From positions 1,255,297 to 1,319,296 of the forward strand of contig NZ_CP011280.1 of the NCBI RefSeq assembly GCF_000973085.1: a DNA stretch of 64,000 nt, given 5' to 3'. Position numbers and translations under genes: made by a program. Of the stretch, positions 5,091 through 52,918 are shown in pieces; the first letter of the stretch is position 1; every line of letters begins with the position of its first letter. The notes below the pieces were generated by a model. That model was not told the origin of the DNA and did no database searches. It saw nothing but the letters and a program-made list of their open reading frames with translations. The stretch is from Sneathia vaginalis. Its GTDB lineage: Bacteria > Fusobacteriota > Fusobacteriia > Fusobacteriales > Leptotrichiaceae.

Positions 5091-5100
5091 ACTTTAATAT

Positions 5101-5226
5101 TTCACATTTGGGGTATAGGTAGTGAGACACCTTCTTTAACATTTCACCTTTGGGATGTAGGTAGTGAGACACCTTCTTTAACATTTCACCTTTGGGATAT
5201 AGGCAGTGAGACACCTTCTTTAAAGT
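5101..5226. repeat. Three tandem copies of a 42-bp repeat
   Basis: Copies begin at 5101, 5143 and 5185 with an exact 42-base period and few differences, for example TTCACATTTGGGGTATAGG against TTCACCTTTGGGATGTAGG. Each contains the small dyad GTGAGACAC. The minus strand stays open through all three copies in one frame, giving a 14-residue unit LKKVSHYLYPKGEM, with an AAAGGTGAAATG start-like motif per unit. The + strand has stops in each copy. The array lies between the nadN terminator and the next promoter. Confidence 0.9.
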
Positions 5227-32763: not shown

Positions 32764-33343
32764 TTTCCTTTATCCTTTCTTCAATGAAAGTAAGTAACTC
32801 ATCTGTCCCCTTATTTGATAGTGATGAGTGGAAAAATACATCTTCATTATTAAATACTAACTTCTTCTTTATTTCTTTTAATTGTCTAAATCTTTCATTA
32901 TTTGATACTTTATCATTTTTTGTAAAGATAATGTAATATTCTTGATTATAGTGTTCTAACCACTTTAACATATCTATGTCTTCACTAGATGGTATTCTTC
33001 TAATATCCAAAAGTAGAAAAATTATTTTCTTTCTATCACAAGATAAATATGATTCTATAATATTCCCCCAATTTTTTTTGACATTGGCTGGAACTTTTGC
33101 AAATCCATAACCTGGTAAATCAACAAAATATATATTATTGTTTATCAAAAAAAAATTAACAAGTTGTGTTCTACCAGGAGTCTTACTTGTTCTTGCAAGA
33201 TTTTTTCTATTAGTTAATCTATTTATTAAAGAAGATTTCCCTACGTTTGATTTGCCTATAAAGGCAAATTCTACCGTCTTACTTTCTGGATAATCTTGTT
33301 TTCTTGTTGCTGATTTTATATACTTTGCATCAGTTACATTCAT
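32747..33343 (-). CDS. engB: Ribosome biogenesis GTPase EngB (YsxC/YihA)
   Basis: The 198-residue single-domain GTPase is needed for 50S assembly. G1 is GKSNVGKSS (about residues 30-38), the G2 Thr is in TSKTPGRTQ, G3 is DLPGYGFA and G4 is TKND. All are in the standard EngB spacing. It overlaps coaE by 14 bases and DUF2207 by 17, so it is translationally coupled at both ends. Confidence 0.96.
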   Translation of the reverse strand: MNVTDAKYIKSATRKQDYPESKTVEFAFIGKSNVGKSSLINRLTNRKNLARTSKTPGRTQLVNFFLINNNIYFVDLPGYGFAKVPANVKKNWGNIIESYLSCDRKKIIFLLLDIRRIPSSEDIDMLKWLEHYNQEYYIIFTKNDKVSNNERFRQLKEIKKKLVFNNEDVFFHSSLSNKGTDELLTFIEERIKENEENN

Positions 33344-33914
33344 TTTTTATCCTTTCTACCATCTCTTTTATATCTTTTTCAAGACTTTCTATACTATGCG
33401 TATTTTCTATCACATACTTAGATAATTTTTTCTTTTCCTCTATATCAATTTGCGATAAAAGCATATCTTTTGCTTTAATTTCTGTTGTACAGTCTCTTTT
33501 CATTATTCTTTTTATTTGTTCTTTTCTACTTACGTATATTAGAATTATTTCATCAAAATACTTTTCTAAATTTAGTTCATATAGCAAAGGAACTTCTATA
33601 AAGGTAAGACCTTCTTTTTGTTTAGATATGATATCAATCATGCAAGCTATTATTCTTTTATGCATAATCTTATTTAAAGCTTTCCTTTTCTTTTCATCAG
33701 AGAAGATAAGGGAAGCTAATTTTTTCCTATCTATATTATTATCACAAAAAACATCTTTAGATATTTTTTCTTTTATTTCTTCCTTAACTTCATCCTTATT
33801 TAATAGGTCATGCGATATATCATCAACATTAAAAACCTTAAAGTTAAGCTTTTTTAAAACACTTAAAACTGTTGTTTTACCACAACAAATCCCACCTGTT
33901 ATTCCTATAACCAT
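33330..33914 (-). CDS. coaE: Dephospho-CoA kinase
   Basis: CoaE makes coenzyme A from dephospho-CoA and ATP. The 194-residue protein begins with the P-loop ITGGICCGKTT (most CoaE have GIGSGKS; the two Cys are unusual but keep GK-T). The DDISHDLL segment has the conserved catalytic Asp. The start is the ATG at 33914. The GTG at 33923 is part of the AGGTGA ribosome binding site, which lies within the last codons of the TnpA-like gene upstream. The stop overlaps engB. Confidence 0.94.
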   Translation of the reverse strand: MVIGITGGICCGKTTVLSVLKKLNFKVFNVDDISHDLLNKDEVKEEIKEKISKDVFCDNNIDRKKLASLIFSDEKKRKALNKIMHKRIIACMIDIISKQKEGLTFIEVPLLYELNLEKYFDEIILIYVSRKEQIKRIMKRDCTTEIKAKDMLLSQIDIEEKKKLSKYVIENTHSIESLEKDIKEMVERIKNECN

Positions 33915-33915
33915 A

Positions 33916-34353
33916 TTATTCACCTATACAATTTTCAGTATGTTCATGATGTATTTCGTCACATTTAATATATTCTTCAATGTAGTGTAAAACTATATCA
34001 TTTGAGCTTACTCCTGTTGTTATTAAGAAATAGTTAGCTTCCCACATGGCAGTACCACTTAGTTTATCTCTAACTTCTGGATAATAGTTCTTTATTTTTC
34101 TACTTGATGCACTCTTGTATGCGTTTATGAATTTATATAAATTTGTAGTAGGATATGCTTCAAATTTAAAGTGCATATGTGTTGCTTCAAAGTGTATTCC
34201 AGTTAAATTAACCTGATATGATACACTAATGTTTTTAAATATCTCTACCCCAAAATTCACTATATCTTCATTAAATATTGGTGTCTTATTCTTTGTTACT
34301 AATACAAGTTCATAGTGTAATGAAAATGCAGAATGATTGTATTCCTTAAACAT
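33916..34353 (-). CDS. IS200/IS605-family TnpA (Y1 HUH) protein embedded in a housekeeping operon
   Basis: The 145-residue protein is of TnpA type: LHYELVLVTKNK near the N-terminus, the HUH pair H59/H61 (ATHMHF), the FINAYKSASSRKI helix, AMWEANYFLITTG, and the nucleophile-region tyrosine Y124 in HYIEEY. Normal TnpA has Gln four residues after this Tyr as a metal ligand (YIExQ); here it is Tyr128. The Asp usually before H-x-H is Thr. The gene starts 11 bases after apt, and its stop lies one base before the coaE ATG, whose ribosome binding site is inside this gene. No IS left or right end fits in these gaps. I infer a domesticated or immobile TnpA. Confidence 0.88.
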   Translation of the reverse strand: MFKEYNHSAFSLHYELVLVTKNKTPIFNEDIVNFGVEIFKNISVSYQVNLTGIHFEATHMHFKFEAYPTTNLYKFINAYKSASSRKIKNYYPEVRDKLSGTAMWEANYFLITTGVSSNDIVLHYIEEYIKCDEIHHEHTENCIGE

Positions 34354-34364
34354 TTATTCACCTT

Positions 34365-34895
34365 CTAATATTTTAATATTGAGTAAACCTTGTTATTATG
34401 TAGTTTTTCTCTACCATTTAAGTCTTTTAATTCTATTAAAAATGCTAATTCATATATATTTGCTTTTGCACTTTCAACTAATTTTACCATTGCTTCAGCT
34501 GTACCACCTGTTGCAAGTAAATCATCTACTATTAATACATTTGATCCTTCTGTTATTGCATCCTTATGTATTTCTATAGTATTTTTACCATATTCTAATT
34601 CATATGAAGCTTTTATTGTTTCTGCTGGTAACTTACCTAATTTTCTAGCTGGAACAAATCCTGCACCTATTTCATAGGCAATAACTGCACCAAAAATGAA
34701 ACCTCTTGCATCTGCTCCTAACACATAGTCTATTCCCTTATTCTTGTATCTATTTATGAAGTCGTCTATAATTAGCTTTAACCCTTGTTTATCCTTAAGT
34801 GCTGTTGTAATGTCTCTAAAAAGTATTCCCTCTTCTGGAAAATTAGGTATGGTTCTAATCATACTGCTTAATTTTTCATTTTCTAACTTAGTCAT
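34365..34895 (-). CDS. apt: Adenine phosphoribosyltransferase
   Basis: Apt salvages adenine to AMP with PRPP in the cytosol. The 176-residue protein has the N-terminal IPNFPEEGILFRDIT, the GADARGFIFG base-recognition region, and the PRPP motif VLIVDDLLATGGTA (about residues 121-134). Length is typical. It overlaps the CorC-like gene by 8 bases and is followed by the TnpA-like gene. Confidence 0.96.
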   Translation of the reverse strand: MTKLENEKLSSMIRTIPNFPEEGILFRDITTALKDKQGLKLIIDDFINRYKNKGIDYVLGADARGFIFGAVIAYEIGAGFVPARKLGKLPAETIKASYELEYGKNTIEIHKDAITEGSNVLIVDDLLATGGTAEAMVKLVESAKANIYELAFLIELKDLNGREKLHNNKVYSILKY

Positions 34896-51411: not shown

Positions 51412-51485
51412 AACATAACAGGCAAGAAGTCGCCCACCTCTGCAGGTTGTGTGATGAATTGCCCTATTTTTTTTAGAGAATAAAG

Positions 51486-51494
51486 TGATATAAT
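51486..51494 (+). promoter_or_regulatory. Extended -10 in the IS left end
   Basis: TG-A-TATAAT (TATAAT at 51489-51494) lies 36 bases before the tnpA remnant. No good -35 is visible. Confidence 0.5.
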
Positions 51495-51529
51495 CAAATC
51501 AGTAGATATATAAAAATAGGAGTAAAATA

Positions 51530-51622
51530 ATGATATTAGATAGTAATTCTCATTCAGTATTCTTACTGTATTATCACTTAGTTCTTATTGTAAAATATAG
51601 AAGAACAAGGACAAAGGATTAA
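51530..51622 (+). pseudogene. 5' remnant of tnpA (IS200/IS605 transposase)
   Basis: The first ~25 codons match the conserved TnpA start (SNSHSVF, then YYHLVLIVKYRR), with an AGGAG site in front. The frame then ends at TAA after 30 residues. All catalytic parts (HUH and Tyr) are missing, and tnpB begins 24 bases later, so an internal deletion removed most of tnpA. Confidence 0.88.
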
Positions 51623-51645
51623 ATAATTTTGAGGGATGTGGACTG

Positions 51646-52785
51646 ATGAAACAGCTAAAAGCATATAAATTTAGAATTTATCCAAGCGATGAACAAAAGA
51701 TATTTTTTAGTAAAACTTTTGGTTGTGTTCGCCTTGTATACAATCTTATGCTAAATGATAGAATTAAAGCATATGAAGAAAGTAAGGGTAATCCTGATAA
51801 AAAATTAAAATATCCTACTCCTGCAAAATACAAAAAAGAGTATGAATTTCTAAAAGAAGTTGATAGTCTTGCTCTCGCTAATGCTCAAATGAATTTAGAT
51901 AAAGCATATAAAAACTTTTTTAGAAATAAATCTGTTGGTTTCCCTAGATTCAAATCTAAGAAAAATCCTGTACAGAGCTATACAACTAATAATCAAAATG
52001 GAACTGTAAATATTTTTGAAAAATGGTTAAAACTTCCAAAATTAAAAGAATTAGTAAAAATAAAAGTGCATAGGAAAGTAAATGGTATAGTAAAATCTGC
52101 TACTATTTTGCGTAATGGAAGTGGTAAGTATTTTATCTCTTTGTTATGTGAAACAGATATTCAAGAAATGTCAAAAACTAATTCATCTGTAGGAATTGAT
52201 TTAGGTATAAAAGATATAGCTATTTTATCTACTGGAGAAAAAATAGAAAATCTTAAATTTAGAAAGCAATTAGAAAATAAATTAAAAAGAGAACAAAGAA
52301 AATTATCAAAAAGATTTTTAGTTGCTAAAAAAGAAAATAGAGAATTAAGCGAATCTAAAAACTATCAAAAACAAAGAATTAAAGTAGCCAAGATACATGA
52401 AAAAATTATGAATATGAGAACAGATTTCTTAAATAAGTTGAGTACATATATTATCAAAAACCACGATATTATTTGTATTGAAGACTTAAATACAAAAGGA
52501 CTACTTCATAATAATAAATTATCTAAATCTATTGCTGATGTATCTTGGGGTAATTTTGTAAATAAACTTGAGTATAAAGCGAAATGGTATGGTAAAGAGA
52601 TAATAAAAATAGATAGGCTATATCCATCAAGTCAAATATGCTCTGTATGTGGGCAACGTGATGGCAAGAAAACTCTTGATGTAAGAGAGTGGACTTGTAC
52701 AATTTGTCATGCTCATCACGACAGAGATATAAATGCAAGTAAAAATATATTGACAGAAGGTCTAAGAATAAGACAAGCAGTCTAA
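51646..52785 (+). CDS. tnpB: RNA-guided endonuclease TnpB
   Basis: The 379-residue protein is a full TnpB. An N-terminal OrfB helix-turn-helix domain (KAYKFRIYPSDEQKIFFSKTFGC) precedes the RuvC-like nuclease. The catalytic acids D185 (GIDLGIKD), E279 (CIEDLN) and D361 (DRDINASKN) are all present at nearly the positions known for ISDra2 TnpB (D191, E278, D361). A zinc ribbon (C332, C335, C351, C354) sits between the last two. TnpB with its omega RNA cuts DNA next to a TAM and helps the IS persist. The C-terminus is short (RIRQAV) but no known catalytic part is missing. Confidence 0.96.
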   Translation: MKQLKAYKFRIYPSDEQKIFFSKTFGCVRLVYNLMLNDRIKAYEESKGNPDKKLKYPTPAKYKKEYEFLKEVDSLALANAQMNLDKAYKNFFRNKSVGFPRFKSKKNPVQSYTTNNQNGTVNIFEKWLKLPKLKELVKIKVHRKVNGIVKSATILRNGSGKYFISLLCETDIQEMSKTNSSVGIDLGIKDIAILSTGEKIENLKFRKQLENKLKREQRKLSKRFLVAKKENRELSESKNYQKQRIKVAKIHEKIMNMRTDFLNKLSTYIIKNHDIICIEDLNTKGLLHNNKLSKSIADVSWGNFVNKLEYKAKWYGKEIIKIDRLYPSSQICSVCGQRDGKKTLDVREWTCTICHAHHDRDINASKNILTEGLRIRQAV

Positions 52786-52918
52786 AAGGAAGTATAAAGA
52801 ACCGTAGGAACTACGGGGATAGCTTGGTAAATATAGTTGGCTAACGAAAGCAACTACTTCCCAAGAAGAAGCTCCCACTTCAAAAATTACAAAGTAATTT
52901 TAAGTGGGAGAGGTTCAC
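52786..52918 (+). ncRNA. Putative omega RNA (reRNA) scaffold of TnpB
   Basis: The 3' end of tnpB and the region behind it hold several hairpins: CCGTAG-GAA-CTACGG, AGTTG...CAACT and the right-end stem TCCCACTT...AAGTGGGA, ending in GGTTCAC. This layout is that of known TnpB guide RNAs, which continue past the right end. The guide would be the flank from 52919 on, TCTAAAGGTACACCAGCTGG, which is antisense to the last codons of sdaA. Family recognition is from layout, not from a covariance search. Confidence 0.7.

Follow-up and report, generated by a model that had tools for sequence, protein, structure and literature searches.

Most of what is known of domesticated Y1 transposases concerns the REP-linked RAYT/TnpAREP proteins. 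The Tyr motifs of the TnpA-Y1 proteins have been described as Y---Q (subclass 1.1), Y---Q--HH (subclass 1.2), Y---NP (class 2) and Y----Q (class 3) (Quentin et al. 2018). In IS608, the metal ligands are D61, H64, H66 and Q131 (PMC5934647), and Q131 is essential in vivo for transposition (PMC6006769).

The Y1 gene described here is located in a 64-kb stretch (the window, positions 1255297-1319296) of the single-contig genome of Sneathia vaginalis (G000, 1,330,224 bases). We conclude with high confidence that it is a domesticated, fixed host gene and no longer an IS. The features of the locus are as follows, in window positions.

33330-33914, minus strand: coaE, dephospho-CoA kinase
33916-34353, minus strand: domesticated Y1 HUH (TnpA-like) gene, 145 aa, ATG start, from the ORF, the Pfam/NCBIfam matches and the single-copy orthologues
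33920-33925, minus strand: ribosome binding site of coaE, AGGTGA, within the final codons of the Y1 gene, from the sequence
34360-34366, minus strand: ribosome binding site of the Y1 gene, AGAAGGT, overlapping the apt stop codon (34365-34367), from the sequence
34365-34895, minus strand: apt, adenine phosphoribosyltransferase

The protein matches Y1_Tnp (PF01797, E=3.3e-26, Pfam) and IS200/IS605 transposase (E=1.8e-25, NCBIfam). The original prediction of a 145-residue Y1 protein with H59, H61 and Tyr124 between apt and coaE is exact to the base, and the 11-nt gap to apt, the stop codon (33916-33918) lying 1 nt ahead of the coaE ATG (33914), and the position of the coaE ribosome binding site are all confirmed. 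These gaps of 11 nt and 1 nt leave no space for IS hairpin ends between the gene and its neighbors, as had been claimed. An Rfam search of window positions 30000-54000 returned no matches, and no REP-like repeat family or palindromes are found near the gene or repeated within the 64-kb window. Three tandem 42-nt repeats are present at window positions 5092-5223, inside a probable coding region.

The protein belongs to a clade of nine orthologues, which were compared residue by residue with 76 other TnpAs. The segments that bear on this comparison are listed below.

34171-34179, minus strand: HUH motif H59-M-H61, conserved in 9/9 orthologues
34090-34134, minus strand: helix KFINAYKSASSRKIK, residues 74-88, the most conserved block that the clade has in common with IS TnpAs, presumed to bind hairpins or single-stranded DNA
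33982-33984, minus strand: codon of the catalytic Tyr124, conserved in 9/9 orthologues
33970-33972, minus strand: Tyr128, at the position of the IS608 Gln metal ligand
33928-33963, minus strand: C-terminal tail C131-x4-H136-x-H138-x3-C142, a probable metal site from sequence comparison

The clade shares with the ISEfa4-like IS200 TnpA (subclass 1.1) an HUH and single-Tyr core of the same fold, the N-H-S-V/F start and the K-F-I-N-A-Y-K-S helix, and the two are 40-46% identical over residues 6-126. Unlike subclass 1.1 proteins, however, its members are encoded by single-copy operon genes that lack IS ends and an adjacent tnpB (absent in 9/9 carriers), contain W-E instead of W-[ST], and carry an additional Cys/His tail. 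Among the comparison TnpAs, 76/76 have the Gln located four residues past the Tyr (Y---Q), compared with 0/9 proteins of the clade, in which the Tyr motif reads Y-[IL]-x-x-[YMIK]-[IV]; the replacement of this Gln had been noted for the window protein (Tyr128) and proves to be universal in the clade. The loop residue Trp99, found in 70/76 comparison proteins, is lost in 9/9, and E105, H123 and K63 are new invariants of the clade. The Thr reported in place of the Asp before H-x-H is present in the window protein (Thr58), but it is not a trait of the clade, as Asp58 is kept in 7/9 orthologues and lost in 2/9, including that of the window. The tail pattern C-x4-H-x-[HC]-x3/4-C is found in 9/9 proteins of the clade versus 0/76 comparison TnpAs, and the invariance of C131, H136 and C142 in an otherwise variable tail suggests a metal site. 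On this pattern, the tail is reasonably likely to bind metal, which is probably zinc.

Similar to the TnpAREP/RAYT proteins (class 2; E. coli TnpAREP, PDB 4ER8), the clade is domesticated, single-copy, mainly vertically inherited and does not transpose itself, and it has a C-terminal extension and a W-E motif, whereas it lacks Y---NP, a REPtron arrangement and, as far as the 64-kb window is concerned, REP sequences. Because the clade is nested phylogenetically in the IS200 TnpAs, its domestication appears to be independent of that of TnpAREP/RAYT. Subclass 1.2 of Cyanobacteria and Bacteroidetes is a class 1 relative that likewise has a low copy number, no IS ends and a His-containing C-terminal addition. 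However, it occurs in other phyla and retains the Gln within Y---Q--HH, which the clade lacks, and the tail of the clade has the Cys/His pattern described above. Judged by sequence, the motifs of the clade match no published TnpA-Y1 subclass, and a literature search limited to open-licence papers found no paper describing it.

Among 33 genomes of the family, a single intact orthologue is present in each of nine genomes from four genera: two Sneathia-type genomes of the same genus (G000 and G028), one that is probably Caviibacter (G001), two of Oceanivirga (G019, O. miroungae, and G020) and four of Streptobacillus (G029-G032, of which G031 is S. notomytis). The identity to the window protein is 60-74% for the apt-coaE type and 47-50% for Streptobacillus, and in 98 genomes of the phylum the nine orthologues score approximately 250 bits against the profile versus at most 140 bits for all other proteins. 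Copies in genomes of the Leptotrichia type are approximately 34% identical and are true IS genes, given that most are multi-copy and adjoin tnpB. The search for multiple identical copies elsewhere found none, each of the nine carriers having one copy. A scan of contigs with the single protein as the query returned no matches; with the alignment, O. miroungae and S. notomytis were recovered, and the other matches listed are ordinary IS TnpAs of at most 48% identity. Plasmids, phages and viral contigs yielded only IS TnpAs, none of which is at least 60% identical.

The synteny check proposed for the Leptotrichiaceae places the gene at a conserved position in relatives. The order corC-apt-gene-coaE-engB is found in all five carriers outside Streptobacillus (three genera), whereas in the four Streptobacillus genomes the gene lies 1-2 nt after mreB in the rpsB-tsf-pyrH-frr-mreB operon. 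In Streptobacillus, as in the other relatives examined, coaE does not come after apt, and the apt-gene-coaE order is restricted to one branch. The gene has changed operon yet is present in all nine genomes, which indicates that it is selected for itself. A function guessed from the operon neighbors was rejected, because the two housekeeping operons are unrelated and apt and coaE are adjacent only in the genomes with the apt-gene-coaE order. In one Streptobacillus genome (G030), the Y1 gene is followed by a TPR gene orthologous to the TPR gene that lies a few genes downstream of apt-gene-coaE in the window, a hint that the operons were rearranged.

The nine proteins group as one clade (support 100/99, in 100% of the bootstrap trees) on a long stem of 1.5 changes per site within the IS200-type TnpAs of Firmicutes and Fusobacterium, in a tree built from few alignment columns and with long branches. 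In the PriA tree, a 100/99 branch sets the host genomes apart. The internal order agrees between the PriA and gene trees, apart from the two g1 sequences, whose placement is weakly supported; this agreement indicates vertical inheritance. The pairwise dN/dS is 0.06-0.13 within Streptobacillus, where dS is largely unsaturated; across deeper splits the ratio is unreliable owing to dS saturation. The mean dN of the gene in Streptobacillus (0.069) matches the value for mreB; within the apt-coaE group, its dN of 0.227 falls between those of apt/engB (0.18) and coaE (0.43). The gene therefore evolves under purifying selection.

The Pfam and NCBIfam labels, which name an IS200 transposase, would also fit a recent IS insertion or an IS relic lying by chance between apt and coaE. 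This explanation is essentially untenable and is refuted by the comparative data: five genomes from three genera carry the gene at the orthologous position, a fourth genus carries it in a second operon, it has no ends, and it is under purifying selection. The conserved position, the single-copy orthologues in 9/9 carriers, the single clade, the selection and the missing IS ends together establish it as a host gene, and the predicted immobile, co-opted status is strongly supported.

In the AlphaFold model, the core adopts the TnpA fold with pLDDT >90 and the Tyr helix spans residues 117-137, whereas the C-terminal end is poorly predicted (pLDDT <50 in places). The best PDB matches are the ISDra2 and IS608 TnpA-DNA complexes, and TnpAREP 4ER8 scores far lower. 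The binding of structured single strands is likely to be retained, and the invariance of H59, H61 and Y124 in 9/9 orthologues slightly favors the retention of Tyr catalysis. The loss of the Gln ligand could signify lost catalysis, and the protein might then be a catalytically dead binder of hairpins in single-stranded DNA or RNA, with a repressor or chaperone function. The absence of the Gln in 9/9 orthologues and of the Asp ligand in 2/9, with the window protein among them, is consistent with such a role, as is the stronger conservation of the DNA-binding helix than of any other block. However, the invariance of H59, H61 and Y124 despite divergence elsewhere is unexpected if catalysis is gone, and we regard a dead binder as rather unlikely.

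The original prediction also raised the possibility that the protein is a trans-acting helper of a tnpA-less IS element at 51414. This element is described as follows.

51412-52918, plus strand: IS200/IS605-type element with an internally deleted tnpA remnant and an intact tnpB

The tnpA remnant starts at 51530 (MILDSNSHSVFLLYYHLVLIVKYRR...) and tnpB spans 51646-52785, so that the element has no intact tnpA, as stated, but is not simply devoid of the gene; it is possibly a former autonomous relative. It is placed between rplS and sdaA, and its right end (GGTTCAC, 52912-52918) extends into the stop codon of sdaA, which is convergent. Among the carriers, IS200/IS605 elements occur only in the two genomes of the Sneathia type. 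The other copies in G000 are at C1:236220-237574 and C1:453002-454213, and those in G028 are at C3:66389, C1:20502 and C2:110290. In all of these copies tnpA is internally deleted, with differing deletions, and tnpB is intact, as if selection keeps tnpB alone. The tnpB copies (236k and 453k in G000, C1 and C2 in G028) differ by 3-5 bases within a genome and by 17-19 between genomes, which indicates copying or conversion after the split without an intact cognate tnpA remaining.

Such copying would fit a transposase supplied in trans that keeps moving tnpA-defective elements, either tnpB-intact IS copies or small hairpin-ended elements. However, in the remaining seven carriers (G001, G019, G020 and G029-G032) the Y1 gene encodes the sole Y1 protein and no TnpB domain is detected (Pfam, 33 genomes), which indicates that helping IS elements is not a conserved role. 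Additionally, the two closest-paired copies carry tnpA remnants of a different TnpA subfamily, the clade has lost the Gln that IS608 needs for transposition, and no repeated hairpins are found in the window. The helper role is thus very unlikely as an explanation of the gene, although it may be a side role in the two Sneathia-type genomes.

We consider it probable, as a whole explanation, that the gene encodes a domesticated IS200-type Y1 protein that binds, and maybe processes, host single-stranded DNA hairpins. A single capture of an ISEfa4-like tnpA, of the IS200 type of Firmicutes and Fusobacterium, took place no later than in the common ancestor of Streptobacillus, Oceanivirga, Caviibacter and Sneathia; the distribution, the tree and the selection show that the IS ends were then lost and that the gene was passed on vertically as a single-copy gene in housekeeping operons. 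The small dimeric protein most likely grips folded single-stranded DNA by the helix of residues 74-88, and, to judge from the conserved H59, H61 and Y124 and the fold, Tyr124 in the HUH site could attack a phosphate. The Tyr-bearing helix has been rebuilt, with the IS608-type Gln gone and the Cys/His tail, a probable zinc site, after it, and these changes suggest that full excision and insertion are probably not catalysed. More likely, the protein acts by binding single-stranded hairpins of the host, perhaps with nicking and resealing, and our best guess for its cellular role is hairpin processing tied to replication or repair. The originally suggested role in DNA repair or repeat handling may apply.

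The clade appears to represent an independent capture directly from the IS200 branch, with no REPs detected in the window. The carriers are a branch of animal-associated bacteria with genomes of 1.2-1.8 Mb that are mostly rid of IS200/IS605 elements and yet keep the gene at an mreB-level constraint. The gene offers a simple case for what a Y1 protein does for the cell, with clear residues to consider (Y124, the lost Gln and the Cys/His tail). It is a tentative and unlikely proposition that the clade constitutes a new functional HUH class, in which the Gln metal site has been replaced by a site dependent on the Cys/His (zinc) tail of the Tyr helix for the nicking and resealing of single-stranded DNA. 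If true, these bacteria would possess a single-strand DNA nicking and resealing enzyme dedicated to the cell and retained through genome reduction.
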